From: Halanaerobium congolense
GTDB lineage: Bacteria > Bacillota > Halanaerobiia > Halanaerobiales > Halanaerobiaceae
Direction of reading: 5' to 3'
Assembly (NCBI RefSeq): GCF_004366375.1
Contig: NZ_SOEF01000012.1
Location: 1 to 64,000, forward strand
Length of the DNA stretch: 64,000 nucleotides
In this document: positions 67 through 13,330 of the stretch, in pieces
How positions within the stretch are numbered: position 1 is the first letter of the stretch
Layout: every line of letters begins with the position of its first letter
Translations under genes and position numbers: made by a program
Notes under the pieces: model-generated
What the model saw: only the letters and a program-made list of their open reading frames with translations
What the model was told of the DNA's origin: nothing
Databases searched by the model: none

Positions 67-975
67 TTATTTACACAAAATACTTGACGTTACCTCTGAT
101 TTAGGTATATTGTATCCGATCCCATTCATTGCAACACAATGTTTAATATTATAAAAGATATCCTGATCATCTTTGAATAACTTTCTCTTTGCAATTCCAG
201 CCCCTGTAGAAGCTCGACAAAGTATATCTGATTCTTTTTTGTTAATTCTAGATATATTATCAAAGAAAGGGAGCCAATTGTGAGCTAAATTTTGTTCTAA
301 ATCTTTATTCAATGTTATTAACTCAGGGGTAGCTGGATCCACAATTCGTTTAATTATCCGAGATAAATTACTTTTCGCAGTTCCTTTAATCCCTTTTAAA
401 TGTAAAACTGCATGTGGAATGTTGGGAATAAAATCAGTTGCTATATAAATCAATAAAAACATAGCCTCTCGTGATTTTTTATCAATATTCACAAAATCTA
501 ATAGTTTTTTCACGTCTTCTATTGATGATTTTTTTGCGATAGTCTGTTCGTTCATTTGCTGATACCTTTTAAATAAAATCGGAGAATCTTTTTGCTCTAA
601 AATCTCCCATCTTCCAGGCTTTATAATAATCTGTTGCCATTTATCATTACATAAATCATAATAAATAGCACTATCATCTTCTGCTACTCTTAAATGAAGC
701 TTTTCTTTTTTAGCTCGATTTGTCGCAATTGCTGCAAATGTCTCAACTGCTGTTTTCAAAGTATCATCTTTTATTGTTTTATTATAAGTTTCATAATAAT
801 GATATCTTAGCCAATTAAAATTTCTAGAATTAATAGGTCTTAACTCAACAAATTTCCCATTATTAAATTTTATCCATGGTTCTTTAAATTGATCTTTAAG
901 AACCTCCGCCTTTTTTTCTAACATCATATTTACAGCTTTCTCCGTCTGATTGCTTCCAGACATTTTTTTAATCAT
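67..975 (-). CDS. Phage/plasmid primase-helicase-like ATPase, C-terminally truncated
   Basis: 302 residues. Residues 194-202 (GIKGTAKS) look like a Walker A loop after a hydrophobic strand (AVLHL). A Walker B-like WLPFFDN follows at 234-240 and a sensor-like asparagine segment (VAMNG) at 281-285. This order is typical of the helicase part of phage and plasmid primase/helicase proteins that unwind or prime element DNA. In that family the arginine-finger region and a further domain follow. Here the protein stops about 17 residues after the sensor, so it is probably cut by a deletion at the left edge of the element. The start is supported by AAGGTGAG ahead of ATG. It lies downstream of two small element genes on the same strand. 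Probably non-functional; the family call is by motif order only. Confidence 0.7.
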   Translation of the reverse strand: MIKKMSGSNQTEKAVNMMLEKKAEVLKDQFKEPWIKFNNGKFVELRPINSRNFNWLRYHYYETYNKTIKDDTLKTAVETFAAIATNRAKKEKLHLRVAEDDSAIYYDLCNDKWQQIIIKPGRWEILEQKDSPILFKRYQQMNEQTIAKKSSIEDVKKLLDFVNIDKKSREAMFLLIYIATDFIPNIPHAVLHLKGIKGTAKSNLSRIIKRIVDPATPELITLNKDLEQNLAHNWLPFFDNISRINKKESDILCRASTGAGIAKRKLFKDDQDIFYNIKHCVAMNGIGYNIPKSEVTSSILCK

Positions 976-2494: not shown

Positions 2495-3343
2495 TTAATT
2501 CATTGACCAGGTTGTACTTCGCTCTGATAAATCAACAATCTTTTTCTTTTTTAAAAGAGCTAGATTATCAGAAATAGTACTACTATCTTCTCCAATTATC
2601 TCGGCCAATTCTTTTGCTTCAAGGTTATCATCTAGGTATAAATAATAAATTAATACCGCTTGCAGCTCACCTCTTCTTCGATACTCAGAAGTCCTTTCAA
2701 TATTTTTTGAAGGTATTCTATATGGATTTTTCTGTGGAATCTTATTAATGAAATCATCTCTTGACTCTTCTTTTATAGCTAGATACTCTCCGTGTTTATG
2801 TTGAATATAAATATGATGTAGACCTAACTTTTTCAATTCTTTTATGACTGTACTCAAACTACCTCTATTCTTAGTAGTGATCATAAATAAATCTTCACCT
2901 GAAGCTGTTTTATAAGTAAGCCCTGTTATATCAAACCAGCCTGCAATATATTCTCTTGGATAATCTACTTCTATATCATTTTTAGGAAACTCGCCAAAAA
3001 TCTCTTTTAATTTATCTTGAAGGGATTTACTATTATAACTTAACTGGTAACGCTTGCTTTTATTATCCTTTCTAATAACCTCATAAAGCTTCGGCTGTAT
3101 ATTAAAAGCCTTGTCTAAATTATCCTTTAAAATTTGAGCAAAAGGGGCTTCTCCTGGATCAACCTCTGTAACAACAGTTCCTTTTTTGCAAAATATTCCT
3201 TTCCCATGTAGAACACCAACAGCATAATTAAAATACTTCTGATCAATAATCTTACACTCTAACAAATGCATTTTGCCGCCACATTCTCTCGAGCAATATT
3301 TTTGCCCCGGTTTTAGCTTCTTACCACAGATACAGTTAGCCAT
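2495..3343 (-). CDS. Degenerate LAGLIDADG protein with zinc-finger N-terminus and winged helix
   Basis: 282 residues from the ATG at 3343, chosen because GAGGAG lies 7 nt upstream; it begins 1 nt after the stop of the upstream gene. Residues 4-21 carry a CxC...CxxxC zinc-ribbon-like knuckle (CICG, then YCSREC). Two LAGLIDADG-like helices follow: AVGVLHGKG (41-49) and IAGWFDITG (133-141). At the catalytic aspartate position (eighth residue) they have K and T, so cleavage activity is very unlikely. Residues about 220-282 look like a winged-helix HTH (LEAKELAEIIGEDSSTISDNL). Degenerate LAGLIDADG plus HTH is also the layout of the regulator WhiA. I infer a DNA-binding, non-cutting partner or regulator of the intact protein encoded just upstream. 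Function unproven. Confidence 0.75.
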   Translation of the reverse strand: MANCICGKKLKPGQKYCSRECGGKMHLLECKIIDQKYFNYAVGVLHGKGIFCKKGTVVTEVDPGEAPFAQILKDNLDKAFNIQPKLYEVIRKDNKSKRYQLSYNSKSLQDKLKEIFGEFPKNDIEVDYPREYIAGWFDITGLTYKTASGEDLFMITTKNRGSLSTVIKELKKLGLHHIYIQHKHGEYLAIKEESRDDFINKIPQKNPYRIPSKNIERTSEYRRRGELQAVLIYYLYLDDNLEAKELAEIIGEDSSTISDNLALLKKKKIVDLSERSTTWSMN

Positions 3344-3344
3344 T

Positions 3345-4163
3345 TTACCACTCCTCAATTTTTAAATTGCTATTTAAACTCCAGCTATCATTTTTCTTTG
3401 TCTTCGATATCTCACCTTCATTAAATAACTCTGCCAATTTTTGAGTAATCTGACTACCAGAAGTATCTAGTCTTTCTGCTAATTCTTTATTACTTAAATC
3501 AGTTTCTGCCATAATGAGTTCTAAAACTTCTTTTCTAAAATCTCCTCTCGGGCGATAAGCATAAAACTCACCGTGATCCAATGCAGCTTCTACAGCTTGC
3601 TTTTTCTTCGGAAACTTTAGTTTAATTCTATTTGCAAAAACTTCCGTATCAATACTCCAAATTCTCAAATAATCTGTCTCAGTTAATTCTTCCCATCTAT
3701 CATCTTCAAATGTACTCACATTATAGCGTGATATTCCCACCTCTTCTAAAGCAGCTTTAACAAAATCAATATTATGATTAGATTTTTGAGAAAATATACA
3801 CTCTAATCTTTCCTCTTCAAACTTAGCATATCCATCAGTATCCCACACTCCTGCCAGCCACTCTTCAGGATAATTTAATTTCTTTGGGATTGACCACAAA
3901 CCTGTTGTTGAATCTTTATACTGAGAAATTAATCTTGTCAGCTTTTTGGATTTAAAATGCAAGATTTTCATTGTACCATCCTTTTCAGTATGAATCGTAG
4001 GTTTAACATTGAAAGTTTTAGCTCCTAACTCATAAATTGTCCTCAAAAACTCCTGCTCTTCAGCATGGATTGAAATCCGAACCAAATTATGATCTTTTCT
4101 AACATTTCCATCTCCCTGAATCACCCCAACTAAGTACTCAAAATCTCTCTGATTTGTAAACAT
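3345..4163 (-). CDS. LAGLIDADG homing endonuclease with C-terminal winged helix
   Basis: 272 residues. Two LAGLIDADG motifs, LVGVIQGDG (11-19) and LAGVWDTDG (103-111), both keep the catalytic aspartate, as expected of a single-chain enzyme that makes a staggered double-strand cut at a long target. Residues about 205-265 form a winged-helix-like segment (LSNKELAERLDTSGSQITQKL), which is not part of the minimal endonuclease and resembles transcription-factor HTH domains. The ribosome binding site GAGAAGGAGG is near ideal. It is free-standing; no intron or intein boundaries are visible around it. Operon with the degenerate relative downstream (stop and next ATG 1 nt apart). It probably acts on, or once mobilised, the resident element. 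Cleavage is inferred from motifs. Confidence 0.8.
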   Translation of the reverse strand: MFTNQRDFEYLVGVIQGDGNVRKDHNLVRISIHAEEQEFLRTIYELGAKTFNVKPTIHTEKDGTMKILHFKSKKLTRLISQYKDSTTGLWSIPKKLNYPEEWLAGVWDTDGYAKFEEERLECIFSQKSNHNIDFVKAALEEVGISRYNVSTFEDDRWEELTETDYLRIWSIDTEVFANRIKLKFPKKKQAVEAALDHGEFYAYRPRGDFRKEVLELIMAETDLSNKELAERLDTSGSQITQKLAELFNEGEISKTKKNDSWSLNSNLKIEEW

Positions 4164-4453
4164 TTAATTTCCTCCTTCTCAAATATGATTTTTAAAATAA
4201 AAGTTTTAATATTTTGAATATTAATATCAAAAATTTCTTCTCTCACTTTTTCTAAGGGGGTGGGGCTCCGAACGTTTTTCTTTTTAGATTGTTATACTAA
4301 TAGTTGGGGTCACGAATTTTTTAGATTTTTGATTTTCTATATAGCTTTTTCCAGCAGCTTTTTATATTATTGAAAGGATACTACTATAAGAGCTCCACCA
4401 TCCTAACAGAAAGATAAACAAATTGCTCTTTCTATCTTATATACAAATTCAAT

Positions 4454-5401
4454 CTACTTTAATTTAATGTGCTCTTTTCTAGTGTTAACAAACTGGTTAA
4501 TTGGATTAAACTCCTCGAAATTTTCTTTTAAATCTTCACCGTACATATTTACGTACTTTCTTACCATTTCCATATTGCTATGGCCCAGGATTTTCTGGAG
4601 CCTAAAGATATCACCACCGTTCTTAATCCACCTTTTGGCAAAGGTATGGCGGTATAAATGGATAGAAGTCTTATCTACTCCTCGTTTCTGATTATAAGTA
4701 GGAATAGCAGAACTAATCCCTTCAGCAGTTAACTTCTCACCATAAATGGAACAGAAAAGATACTGGTCTTTATCTTGATTTAAAAAGGTCAGATACTCCT
4801 GTAGGATTACTATCAGCGATTTTGCTATGGGAATTATTCGCTGCTTTTTATTCTTTACTTCCCGGAGAACTACATAACCATCATTTAAATCAAGATCACC
4901 AATCTTAATATTTCTAACAGTCCTTGAACGATTTCCTGTAGCTAGAAGCCAGTTTGTTAAAACCCAGTTTCTATATTCTGCAAAACCACAATTTTTAATA
5001 TCAGGTTTTTTAAGTAGTTTTCTTAACTCACCATCTGTATAGGTAATCTTTATTTTTTCTGTCTTTCTGAGTAATGTAATTTTAAACTCCTCTAAATAAC
5101 CCAGATCCATTAAATGATACAAAAAAGCTCTTACTGCTCTTAAATAAGTATTAATTGAACTATTTGTTCTATCGCCTTCTTTAAGAAATAGAATATAATC
5201 AGTCATGACTTCACCATTTATTTCACTAATTAAACCAATATCTTCTTCCAGCAAGAAATTATTAAATCTTTTGAAATTATTATTGTAATACCATAATGTT
5301 TTTTCACTCAAATCCTTTGCCCTACAAAACTTAATAAATTTTTCATAAGCCTCTTCCACCGTCATCCGATCACTGTACTTAATTAGGTTCATTTTAGGCA
5401 T
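4454..5401 (-). CDS. Tyrosine recombinase (integrase, XerC/D-like)
   Basis: 315 residues. The N-terminal SAM-like core-binding domain (about 14-105: VEEAYEKFIKFCRAKDLSEKT) is followed by a catalytic domain with R158 (TGNRSR), a lysine in the beta hairpin (183-186), H248xxR251 (HLYRH), H274 (GHSN) and the nucleophile Y283 (VRKY). All six catalytic positions are present, so the enzyme looks intact. Site-specific integration/excision of the element is the likely role. It lies 133 bp from the 3' side of a broken tRNA-Arg(ACG) on the same strand, the standard place for an integrase beside its attachment site. GGAGG precedes the ATG. A cellular Xer is less likely from this context. Confidence 0.9.
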   Translation of the reverse strand: MPKMNLIKYSDRMTVEEAYEKFIKFCRAKDLSEKTLWYYNNNFKRFNNFLLEEDIGLISEINGEVMTDYILFLKEGDRTNSSINTYLRAVRAFLYHLMDLGYLEEFKITLLRKTEKIKITYTDGELRKLLKKPDIKNCGFAEYRNWVLTNWLLATGNRSRTVRNIKIGDLDLNDGYVVLREVKNKKQRIIPIAKSLIVILQEYLTFLNQDKDQYLFCSIYGEKLTAEGISSAIPTYNQKRGVDKTSIHLYRHTFAKRWIKNGGDIFRLQKILGHSNMEMVRKYVNMYGEDLKENFEEFNPINQFVNTRKEHIKLK

Positions 5402-5533: not shown

Positions 5534-5591
5534 CGAACCCTCAGCCTACTGATCCGTAGTCAATCGCTCTATCCAGTTGAGCTACGGGCGC
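5534..5591 (-). tRNA. tRNA-Arg(ACG), 3' end missing
   Basis: The minus strand from 5591 reads GCGCCCGTAGCTC..., with acceptor 5' strand, a D arm (GCTC/GAGC), an anticodon stem ATTGA/TCAGT around loop CTACGGA (anticodon ACG), a variable loop and the start of the T arm (GAGGGTTCG). After 5534 the sequence no longer matches a tRNA: no T-stem partner for GAGGG and no acceptor 3' strand CGGGCGC. So about 57-58 of 73 coded bases remain. A perfect promoter lies upstream. The likely cause is site-specific recombination within the T loop by the neighbouring integrase, followed by loss of the restoring end. As it stands the gene cannot make a functional tRNA. Confidence 0.75.
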
Positions 5592-6103: not shown

Positions 6104-9100
6104 CTATTCTCGCCAAAACCGCCCGCCTAGAGTTTTTAATATCTGCCCTGAACCATTTTCTTTTATCTCAACAATCTCTCTTACAGAAGAACTTTCTTCA
6201 TGACGAATATTTCTATCAAATATCTCACTTACTATTTTTAATTGATAAGTGACACGATACTGATTATTACCCTTTTGTTCTACAATTTCAAGATTTGTAA
6301 TCTGGAAACTTATATTATCAAAAACCCTAAAATTGCGGATAAGTGTTTCTTCCAGATCCCATAATGTAGTGCCATCAGCAGATTCCCAATCATCAGCCAG
6401 CAGACTCAAAACACCATATTCATCTTTGGACTGATATCGATAAGCAAACTCCTTATAAAAAGCATTGATTTTGTTTAATGATTGCTTTGATTTCTCCTCA
6501 TTTTTACTAACTAAATTTTCTGCTTCTTTAATCAATTTTTTCAATTTCTCCAGTAATTCCGGACATCTACTGCCGGGGTCCTCTCCCGGTAAATCTCTGT
6601 GTTCCATTTTTAATTTTTCCAATTCTTCTTCATAAAGCAAAGCATTTTCATAATCCTTTTCTCTAATAAAAAATTCAACTGAATCAATAGCTCCTTCTAT
6701 TCTATATGCCAGCTCATCATAGGGAATTAATCTTTCGCTTTTCTTGCGGTATTCTTCCTGAGCCCTGTGGTTATATTTATAAAAGACATCTCTTAAATCC
6801 TGGGCAAATTGTTTATACCTTACAGCAAGTGTATAATCTGCAAGATATTCCAGGGATTCCTCTTTTATTAAGTACTTAATTTCTTGCATTACTTTTTCGC
6901 CACTTTCATTAATAATAACTCTTCCCCCAACGGAGGCCTCTTTAGCAGCCGGAAAACTTTTCACCTCTGCAGTTAAAGGAAGCAGTTTAGAAATTTTTCT
7001 GATATTATCGATAAATTCTTTTTCTTTTATTAATCTATAATTTTCATCTATTTCTCCTTCAACAATCTCAGCTGCCTCAGCCAATATCTTTTCTGCTTCT
7101 GTAAGATTACTCTCTTTTATTACTTTGAAATTTCCAGCTTGAGCCAGGGCCTCCACAGTATTTCCCTGCAAGATATAGGCAGGATGAACGATTATATCTT
7201 CAGTTGCTCCCTTAATAGGTGGGTGTGATCTATCCGAAATTATTTTTAAATCAAGTATATCATTTAATGTCTTTAATGAATTTTTAGCATAAGTATTATA
7301 AAAACTGTAAACATTATACTCAGTAAATTTCTTCTTGATAAGCTCTATATCAGATTTCAAACCACTTATTTCACTTTCTTTCATCAGGTGTGGATATGGC
7401 TTAGCCGTTAATATCATACCATCAAATTCACTTTTTTGTTTATTCTGAGCATTTTCACCTATATAGGCATTACCCTCGGGAAGATTCAACATAAAATTGG
7501 CTTTAATTAAACCTGAGGATTCAAGGTCCTCAAATAATAGTTCTATTCTGTAGGCAGTATCTCTGACCCACTGAATATGTCGCTGAAAATCATCAGCATA
7601 ATTAACAAAAGCAGCATTGAGTTTAGCAAATACAGGAGATATTTGCTTACTTTCTTCTAACAGACGATTTATTTCTATTCCTAATTCTTTCAGTTCTTTA
7701 ACCGAAAAATCCTTATCCACCAGTTCTTTTATTTCCTCTTCTTCTTTGCCATTGGGAATCTCAATTGTTCTCCATATTTTTTCTACAGACTCTACCTGGC
7801 TCTTAACTTTACGAAGCCTCATTTCCCTCTCCATTAAATCATCAGAAGATATTGAGAGTCCTCTTGAACTTATATAGTTCTCCAGTTGGGAACTGATATC
7901 TACAAAGTGTGAAGAAATATTTATATCAGGAGAATATGAAAAAATCTCCATATAATGCTCTCGGTCACTTTCTAACCAATCAGTAATTGAAAAAGAAAGC
8001 TTATCTTTTAAAGCCACTTCTTTTCTTCTGCCATGTCTATAACTAATTCCTGGCTCAATCAATATGCCTTCTATTTTATCTAATTTACTTTCTATACTGT
8101 CATACTGCTGTTTTCTGAAACTAATTCTTCTAATGACAGCATTATGTCTATCTCTGAATGAGCGGTCGGTTTCTCTTAAATATATCTCTGCCGGTCTGAC
8201 TACAGCTTCATTAACCGCTTCTTTGGCTTGAACTACAAGTCCGCGTGAGAGAACACTTTTTTTATATTCAATTACTCTTTTTGGATTAGGATGATTTATC
8301 AAGTTTCCCCCATCATCTAGAAATAAATCACCGGGGTTTTTATTATATTTGGAATCATATTTACTGATTATTTGAGAAACTTGAGCTTCAGCAATTTCAC
8401 TGATCCTTTTTACAACTTCTCGATCTTCTGTACTGGCTTCAGAAATATTTTCTCCTTTTATGAAACGATTATATAATTTTTGCCGTCTCTCGCAGGCATA
8501 AGAAATTGATTTTAATTCTTCATTGCATTGATTATAATAAGGTCCCCATTCATAATTAATTATCCTATTGAGACCGTCAACATCCACCAGTGTATTTTTA
8601 TGTCCCCAGATTTCCTCCCGATAATGATCTGTACTGCTGGTATTTTTTAATTTACTTAGATACTCACTCTTTAATTGTTCGATATAGCTTTTATTTTTAA
8701 TAAATTCAGGTTTTTCCAGCAGACCAGATATTAATATAGTGAATATTTTGGGTATTTTTTCTACTTTATATTCTGTAGTTGTTTCATAGGCTGCGGCCGG
8801 TTCATTTATCATGGGTGGTAAATTTTCAAAAATTTTAATCCGCAACTCATGCCAGTTGCGTATATGGAGCAAGTAATCATCGGCCAGAGGTTTCATGCCA
8901 GCCCAGCTGATATCCCGGCGTTTAGGAGTCAATTCATTTTCCCATTTTACTGTTTCACTATATAACTCACTGAAAACCGAGCGTTTTTTATCCGTGTTTT
9001 TTATATTGTTAAACTGTTTATTAACAAGGATATAATTTTTTTCGCTTTCCACCAGGATTTCTCTATATGAATCTTCCCTAGCCTGAATTTCCTTTATTTT

Positions 9101-11611: not shown

Positions 11612-13198
11612 TTAAAAGTTTATAGTAATTCCACTAGAAATGCTATTTTCTCTGATATCTTTATCAGAATTTTCGCTATAACTCAAGTCATTATACTTTA
11701 ATCTTAAATATATACGTCCCTGATTATATTTTTCTAAAAATAAAGGTCTATAATAAAAACTAAAATTTGCGAATAATTTTCTGATATCTTCCTCTTCTCT
11801 ATTGTCTTCCTTCTCCCCAAATCTAATACTTGAATTAATTCTACTCTCTGGTATATCCAGACCAAGTTCAAAAGATTTTTCAAAACTACTATTACTAATA
11901 TCCTCAGTCTCATTATCATTATTAAAATATCCAAATCTAAGAGTAGGTCTTAGTATATATTTATTTATAGTTTTTCTTGTACTTAAAGAAATATTAGAGG
12001 TTAACTCATCCTCTTTTTTTAAATCATCACCTAGCTCTGATTCTTGATCTGAATAACTCATACTTATTCTCATATCTAGCAGTTTAAATCTATCACGATA
12101 GTTTACAGTATATCTGTTATCCTTTACTAACATATCGTCTGATTCTTTTTTATTCAAATTATATTTAAATGAAGTTGAAGCATAACGCCTATTAAAAATA
12201 TGTCTAATACTAACTCCTAACCCCGGTTTATGATAATAGGTGGTGGAAGATTTTGTTCCATCCAAATTATCATAAAAATAGATATAATCAAAATTATAAT
12301 TAATTCGCTCACTATACCGGTAAAGTAGAGAACCTTTATATTTTACTCTATCTGCCGTAGCCGAACCTAAAAGAGTCTTAAAACCGGGTTCAACACGTTC
12401 ATAATCAATTGACGCTCTACCCTCTTTAGCGTTGGAAAATATTTTAATTTTATGAGCAGTTCCTGAAAAACTACTATTTTCAGATTCTTCAGTATCCCCA
12501 TATGCAGAACTACCTTTTACAGTGAGCCCTTGTATTGGATAATATTCCCAATTAAAGCCATAGATATCATTATCATAGAGAATATCATTATCATTAACAC
12601 CCTTCTCATCATTAGTCTTTAATAGACTTAAACCCCACTTAAACTTCTCATTTTGCCTATTATTATAATTCATCCCCCAACTCTTTCTTGAAACTGCCTG
12701 ATAGTCATCATTAAAAATATTTTCCCATCTCGGATAATCATAACCAAAAACAAATTTAAAGTTCCCATTATTCGGACTATTGTATTTATAAGAAATTCCC
12801 TTCAAAGAACTATTTAACACATATTGATCAAAATATTCAAAAGTATCACCTATGTTAAATACTGATGAATTGTCTTTGCTGCTAATGCTGGCTTTAAGAC
12901 GAGAAATTAATAGATCTTGCTCTTCACTGATTCTATCTTCCTGTGTATTGAGCCCCATATTGAATAGAAAATTATATTTATCCATCTCATTTCTATTAGT
13001 ATAATTAAAATTCCCATTATACTTAAAACCATCATTAAGAATACTATTATTAGCCCCAGGTCCTGAAACATCATTACTAATTAACTCTACTTCACTTAAT
13101 ACTATAGAGTCCGCCTTAACATTAACTGCCGCTATAAAGACATATATTAATATGAAACATAAAACATATAACTTGAAAATACTTGTTTTTTTAAACAA
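11612..13198 (-). CDS. Predicted outer-membrane beta-barrel protein
   Basis: 528 residues. Signal peptide at 1-29 (LYVLCFILIYVFIAAV, cleavage after VKA). The mature part is rich in alternating polar/aromatic strands (NFDYIYFYDN, FKWGLSLL, IYLRLKYNDLSY), with many Y/N/S and few hydrophobic helices. It ends in SSGITINF, a C-terminal phenylalanine preceded by alternating hydrophobics, which is the usual beta-signal read by BamA. Head of the three-gene envelope cluster. Barrel strand count and substrate cannot be read by eye; similarity to a named porin family was not recognised. It supports a diderm host. Confidence 0.75.
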   Translation of the reverse strand: MFKKTSIFKLYVLCFILIYVFIAAVNVKADSIVLSEVELISNDVSGPGANNSILNDGFKYNGNFNYTNRNEMDKYNFLFNMGLNTQEDRISEEQDLLISRLKASISSKDNSSVFNIGDTFEYFDQYVLNSSLKGISYKYNSPNNGNFKFVFGYDYPRWENIFNDDYQAVSRKSWGMNYNNRQNEKFKWGLSLLKTNDEKGVNDNDILYDNDIYGFNWEYYPIQGLTVKGSSAYGDTEESENSSFSGTAHKIKIFSNAKEGRASIDYERVEPGFKTLLGSATADRVKYKGSLLYRYSERINYNFDYIYFYDNLDGTKSSTTYYHKPGLGVSIRHIFNRRYASTSFKYNLNKKESDDMLVKDNRYTVNYRDRFKLLDMRISMSYSDQESELGDDLKKEDELTSNISLSTRKTINKYILRPTLRFGYFNNDNETEDISNSSFEKSFELGLDIPESRINSSIRFGEKEDNREEEDIRKLFANFSFYYRPLFLEKYNQGRIYLRLKYNDLSYSENSDKDIRENSISSGITINF

Positions 13199-13330
13199 TA
13201 AAATCTAACCTCCTTTTTATTTGGGTATATTCTCGGCTAAATAATCCTTTATATTTCATGGGCTCAAAGGCCCTAATTTTATCTATATCTAAAATCAATT
13301 CTTTAAATTATATAAGCTTCCCCCATTAAA

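Follow-up and report, generated by a model that had tools for sequence, protein, structure and literature searches.

The stretch of Halanaerobium congolense DNA analysed here (64,000 nucleotides, referred to below as the window) contains two adjacent genes encoding proteins of the LAGLIDADG type, one intact in both of its motifs and one catalytically dead. The same genome has a second copy of this pair on contig C46 (locus L011), in which the intact gene lies at positions 6775-5957 and the dead gene at positions 5955-5086. The features of the window locus are as follows.

67..975, minus strand: AAA/D5-like ATPase of the carrier element, homologous to L011:8270-9751 (tblastx 36-52%)
2495..3343, minus strand: catalytically dead paralogue, 282 aa, starting at ATG 3343 and related to the intact family by hhalign
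2498..2683, minus strand: winged helix of the dead protein, about aa 221-282 (weak MarR_2, HTH_Crp_2 and ArsR-type matches)
2921..2947, minus strand: degenerate motif 2 of the dead protein, IAGWFDITG (IAGWFDTRG on C46)
3197..3223, minus strand: degenerate motif 1 of the dead protein, AVGVLHGKG (VLQANAS on C46)
3281..3334, minus strand: zinc-knuckle-like CxC...CxxxC (C4, C6, C17 and C21) at the N-terminus of the dead protein
3345..4163, minus strand, stop codon included: intact two-motif LAGLIDADG protein with a C-terminal winged helix, 272 aa
3351..3356, minus strand: GAGGAG, the ribosome-binding site for the dead gene, lying within the final EE codons of the intact gene
3372..3548, minus strand: winged helix at about aa 206-264 of the intact protein (aa 207-265 match HTH_24, MarR and Sta1)
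3831..3857, minus strand: LAGVWDTDG, second motif of the intact protein, by translation
4107..4133, minus strand: LVGVIQGDG, first motif of the intact protein, by translation
4255..4330, minus strand: conserved leader block of about 76 bp, upstream of the pair
4454..5401, minus strand: tyrosine integrase of the pair-carrying element (Phage_integrase, 99.2 bits)
5534..5591, minus strand: 5' part of a tRNA-Arg(ACG), broken in the T loop beside the integrase, from sequence

A sequence-only reading of the locus had proposed that the upstream protein keeps the catalytic aspartate in both motifs (QGDG and DTDG). Translation bore this out, and both acids are also retained in the C46 intact protein and are thus invariant across the two copies. 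In Pfam searches the intact protein scored over the cut-off for LAGLIDADG_3 (43.2 bits in two stretches, cut-off 22.5), for Hom_end (23.6) and for HTH_24 (22.6, cut-off 21.9), and it matched phrog_11023, 'homing endonuclease with LAGLIDADG motif', in PHROGs (E 5e-6 to 6e-5); the PADLOC matches for the pair were generic homing-endonuclease and HTH only. AlphaFold2 models of both proteins, made from two-sequence alignments, were of low confidence (mean pLDDT 52 and 40), and Foldseek matches obtained from them count as weak support. In the low-confidence model of the intact protein the N-terminal lobe (residues 1-99) aligned with 7qsu (Z 8.9, rmsd 3.1, 93 residues aligned), with I-DmoI (Z 8.4) and with TliVMA-type endonucleases; pLDDT was about 70-80 across aa 21-80, the second lobe was low-confidence, and the winged helix was modelled, also at low confidence, with aa 209-248 in helices and aa 254-263 in strands. 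The retained acids, together with the family membership, suggest that the upstream gene encodes a monomeric LAGLIDADG nuclease of the free-standing kind. Like the known LAGLIDADG endonucleases (the I-DmoI-like monomeric enzymes and those of inteins and introns) it has two motifs in one chain with both acids present. Unlike them, it has a winged helix and an apparently co-translated dead paralogue with a zinc knuckle, and the pair lies outside any intron or intein. Rfam at the gathering threshold gave no family in the 64-kb window, and an intron-encoded endonuclease or maturase was ruled out by the lack of any group I or II intron in that search; the Pfam results for the pair contained no Hint or intein domain, and no intein remnant was found.

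For the downstream gene the ORF list gives a TTG at 3358, which is a mechanical start only; the true start was taken as ATG 3343, from which the protein opens with MANCICGKKLKPGQKYCSREC. Translation agreed with the earlier statement that K and T replace the catalytic D at the two positions (HGKG and DITG). In each motif it is the second acidic residue that is catalytic; the D in DITG is a structural residue, kept in both dead copies, and motif 1 retains its packing Gly and small residues. On C46 the replacements are different (N and R), so that the catalytic acid is absent from both motifs in both copies, which places the dead protein outside the LAGLIDADG homing endonucleases as defined by that acid. 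Its Pfam scores were just under the cut-off for LAGLIDADG_3 (20.9 against 22.5) and sub-threshold for MarR_2 (19.8), and it had no match in PHROGs; the C46 homologue clears the LAGLIDADG_3 cut-off at 25.3. When the intact and dead families were compared by hhalign, they aligned with 98.8% probability (E 1.4e-16) over 243 columns (aa 33-284), which run from the first LAGLIDADG helix, by way of a YRxRGx linker, to where the winged helix ends. Over its full length, then, the dead protein is paralogous to the intact one, as the proposal of a duplicated gene had supposed, and the claim that both proteins end in a winged helix holds in the same alignment as well as in the Pfam HTH matches. The CxC...CxxxC knuckle was likewise confirmed, and in both elements it is restricted to the dead partner. 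Structure prediction of each chain, which had been put forward as a check, went part of the way: one lobe of each protein aligns with LAGLIDADG structures (for the dead protein residues 32-120, Z 9.0, in a low-confidence model), and the dead winged helix aligned with Lrp, Zalpha and other winged helices at Z about 8-9, again in a low-confidence model.

The two genes are separated by exactly 1 nt (TAA-A-ATG). Since the gap is so short and the GAGGAG lies within the end of the intact gene, translation of the dead gene is probably coupled to that of the intact gene. The 1-nt junction recurs on C46, where the context of the ribosome-binding site (GAGGAGTGGTAANATGGCTAA) is identical, and the earlier suggestion that the two proteins are made together is in keeping with this.

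The arrangement had been compared with that of WhiA (DUF199). The part of the comparison that stands is the layout, a LAGLIDADG scaffold with a C-terminal DNA-binding helix-turn-helix, catalysis being lost in the dead partner; WhiA identity was ruled out. Neither protein matched LAGLIDADG_WhiA or HTH_WhiA in Pfam at E <= 1, and a match to WhiA_N was weak (19.1 bits, under the 23.4 cut-off). The genome has a true WhiA at L003:1120-2043, which matches all WhiA domains and directly follows a gene that, from its sequence, we take to be yvcK-like; by hhalign the probabilities of relationship to this protein were 2.9% for the intact and 0.4% for the dead protein. As the WhiA-specific domains are absent and the genome's own WhiA is elsewhere, the pair is not WhiA, from which it also differs in being on a mobile element, away from the chromosomal yvcK-whiA locus, and in the partnership with an intact nuclease-type protein. 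A related idea is that both proteins are WhiA-like transcription regulators that bind an operator, perhaps the upstream leader. Both do have winged helices, a leader is found upstream of the pair at both loci, the top Foldseek match of both low-confidence models was WhiA (3hyi), and dead LAGLIDADG domains can serve as regulators, WhiA being an example (cited in PMC3984707 and PMC7282813). This idea has to contend, however, with the invariance of both catalytic acids in the upstream protein, as well as with the Pfam and hhalign results and the presence of the separate WhiA, and we consider it unlikely.

In the window the pair sits between the tyrosine integrase and other genes of an integrative element, including the ATPase, whose L011 homologue resembles plasmid ATP-binding proteins. 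The window ATPase has 302 aa compared with 493 aa for that homologue, with an early stop near the contig edge, and the window element may be partly decayed. The broken tRNA-Arg(ACG) is probably the attachment end of the element, judging from its position and sequence; ARAGORN called no tRNA at window positions 5534-5591, and the element seems to break its target tRNA and not to restore it. An intact tRNA-Arg(ACG) is present on contig C22 and another on C37 near a related integrase. The ORF at 1517-2090 of the window (minus strand), listed from GTG 1993, appears to run upstream to an ATT codon that stands behind a good Shine-Dalgarno sequence (GGAAAGGAGG), and a rare ATT start is possible there. 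The element on contig C46 is of the same type: it encodes RecT, RadC and ArdC and includes a weak Cas4-like match, and an integrase fragment is found where the contig ends; the tyrosine integrases of the two elements are related. A related element is also found at a tRNA-Ser in a congener, G017.

Between the window and C46 the intact proteins are 68% and the dead proteins 65% identical. All four knuckle cysteines of the dead protein are retained on C46, and the knuckle region is the most conserved part of this protein (aa 1-30, 87% identity, compared with 64% for each of the lobes and 58% for the winged helix). Comparison of the two copies by NG86 with bootstrapping gave dN/dS values of 0.12 (0.06-0.19) for the intact gene and 0.23 (95% interval 0.15-0.34) for the dead gene, values which are rough because dS is high, and both genes are thus under purifying selection. 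Neutral drift of the dead frame was simulated at the observed divergence of about 29% at the nucleotide level; about 13 stop codons were expected, and none of 5000 simulations gave a stop-free outcome. These results bear on the idea that the dead copy is a duplicate in decay and heading for loss, which would account for the absence of both catalytic residues and for the lower conservation of the winged helix. The frame is nevertheless open in both copies at a divergence where many stops would have accumulated, the upper bound of dN/dS is 0.34, and the knuckle, the junction and the ribosome-binding site are preserved, so that decay is highly improbable. The concern raised in the sequence-only reading, that the second protein might be a random pseudogene, is contradicted by the same open frames and dN/dS, which rule out a pseudogene; since both genes are kept under selection in a second element, the dead copy is to be regarded, on sequence grounds, as functional and not as debris.

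A conserved leader adjoins the pair at every occurrence and is upstream of it in both loci. In two related elements the leader is about 105 bp long and stands before small zinc-ribbon ORFs; the leader positions are 4255-4330 in the window, L011:4966-5070 and 7174-7275, and L057:10545-10649. The window block is 72-73% identical to the downstream leader of C46 (leader2) and to the single leader of G017, and in comparisons with these two none of 300 dinucleotide shuffles scored as high. The leaders of C46 and G017 contain a hairpin that resembles a terminator (z -1.5 to -2.0); the window leader has lost it (z +0.6), a conserved RNA structure is unsupported there, and the leader as a conserved RNA was dropped for the window copy.

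The order of genes in the C46 and G017 elements permitted one comparison of a filled with an empty site. In G017, whose genome has no LAGLIDADG pair, the order is gene X, leader, a small zinc-ribbon ORF (ZnR) and ArdC, and on C46 it is gene X, leader1, ZnR1, intact, dead, leader2, ZnR2 and ArdC. The flanks are closely similar between the two (gene X 94.1%, the region upstream of it 92.2%, ArdC 94.7% and RecT 96.5%), as is leader2 (97.6%), whereas leader1 (77.9%) and ZnR1 (68.0%) are diverged. It follows that a block of about 2.2 kb, consisting of leader1, ZnR1 and the pair (L011 5077 to about 7281), was inserted on C46 with nothing lost, a clean insertion relative to the empty relative. One edge is exactly at the boundary between the gene X stop and the leader, and the native leader2 resumes 10 nt past the stop of the dead gene; the insert therefore came with a diverged copy of the segment next to it, and the native copy was displaced downstream. 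In the window the pair follows a different gene, again with an upstream leader, and no displaced leader scored above shuffles downstream of the dead gene.

This insertion can be read in two ways. If the upstream protein is a homing endonuclease, it may have caused the insertion itself, and some properties of its target follow from the C46 arrangement: a target wholly within the leader is unlikely because the native leader2 is unharmed beside the nuclease gene, and any target must span the junction of gene X and the leader, since leader2 is intact and the insertion destroys that junction. The homing reading is drawn from a single filled/empty comparison, which passive recombination between leader and ZnR repeats explains equally well; against homing, too, are the lack of a displaced downstream leader at the window copy and of relatives in other genomes or mobile-element collections, which would be odd for a successful homing element. 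The alternative is that the pair is a cargo cassette moved by homologous recombination between the leader and zinc-ribbon repeats and that the nuclease plays no part. C46 and G017 have a modular array of genes for proteins of about 235 aa interspersed with zinc-ribbon ORFs of 45-54 aa around the repeated leader, the same element has genes for RecT-type recombinases, and the edges of the insert match the leader repeat. (The array genes are at L057:10655-11383, 11774-12472 and 12561-13268 and at L011:7280-8008, and match no Pfam family over its cut-off.) Passive movement leaves unexplained, however, why two intact catalytic acids should be under strong selection and why an endonuclease-type gene should be the cargo, and the pair recurs in the window after a different gene, yet with the upstream leader. 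On balance we think the cargo explanation possible but would not expect it to be correct.

The closest known kinds are the free-standing LAGLIDADG endonucleases and, for the layout, the WHO elements of yeast and the related HO endonuclease, in which a free-standing LAGLIDADG nuclease, derived from an intein and fused to a zinc finger, lies beside its target and the insertion introduces a diverged version of the segment next to the target, displacing the native one (PMC7282813). The C46 pair is similar in having a diverged segment on one side and the displaced native copy on the other, and the involvement of a zinc module and the clusters of related nuclease genes are further likenesses. The pair differs from the WHO elements in being bacterial, in having the zinc module on a separate dead partner and not on the nuclease, and in that this partner is under selection and is not a pseudogene; in addition the window copy has no displaced segment, and the mobility of the pair is putative.

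The check proposed earlier, a search for other genomes with the two-gene unit, has so far found none, the second copy being in the same genome, so that both known copies, in two elements, belong to a single genome. At the sensitivity of the searches, in which pattern-based scans detect close relatives only, there were no relatives in the order sample, among 59 genomes of the class or 398 sampled from the phylum, in phages or plasmids (tblastn), or in collections of viral contigs and genome contigs. The lone weak match in the phylum (G213) covered the winged helix only and had an internal stop. In a survey of PF14528 across 299 phylum genomes the matches listed were mostly in long frames, probably inteins, or in frames of WhiA length, the classes being assigned by length with three non-long frames opened, and among these listed matches there was no further two-protein unit. 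One standalone LAGLIDADG protein of 190 aa was seen in another phylum genome (L058:2780-3352, from G230:C23), with a small ORF on one side and a RelE-like toxin-type ORF on the other. In the literature searched, which was covered in part, we found no description of a co-translated pair of intact and dead LAGLIDADG proteins.

Taken as a whole, the observations are best accommodated by a two-protein module of the homing-endonuclease type carried on integrative elements, in which a live nuclease is made together with a dead DNA-binding sister, a reading that we adopt tentatively and to which we give nearly an even chance of being right. The live protein would cut copies of related elements that do not have the pair, and repair would copy the module in beside the leader sequence that travels with it. 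The coupling, the paralogy and the selection suggest that the dead protein acts as a partner of the live one. Having lost its catalytic acids and kept a DNA-binding scaffold and winged helix, it would most likely bind the same DNA site as the live protein or an overlapping one, possibly in a complex with it, and could either be a partner that lends specificity or act as a brake that limits self-cutting and expression. A scaffold of this sort acting as a brake would have a precedent in the I-TevI-type endonucleases, which also repress their own gene; I-TevI is, however, a single bifunctional protein of the GIY-YIG family, and the present pair would split the two roles between paralogues.

A different use of the same components would be a restriction- or antitoxin-like system, with the live copy directed against related elements or phages that enter the cell and the dead copy protecting the sites of the resident element. 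The co-translation, common origin and shared DNA-binding architecture would allow the dead copy to occupy the same site, and the fact that the residues at the catalytic positions differ between the two dead copies would fit simple occlusion. The dead protein, however, matched no defence family in PADLOC beyond generic HTH. Homing endonucleases, moreover, usually have no need of an immunity partner because their insertion destroys the site, and we regard this system as rather improbable. A more specific form of the homing-type module, in which the live one of the two co-translated LAGLIDADG-winged-helix paralogues does the cutting, the dead zinc-knuckle partner controls the site by giving specificity or immunity, and the whole spreads with the leader among related bacterial integrative elements, is in our estimation conceivable, though doubtful.

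To our knowledge, WhiA and other domesticated LAGLIDADG proteins that have lost catalysis are known as end products only. A live nuclease-type gene together with a selected dead sister in one mobile-element operon would represent an intermediate stage, and if this is correct the transition from homing endonuclease to DNA-binding regulator becomes testable, as does the question of whether bacterial mobile elements steer or restrain a nuclease by means of a dead sister protein.
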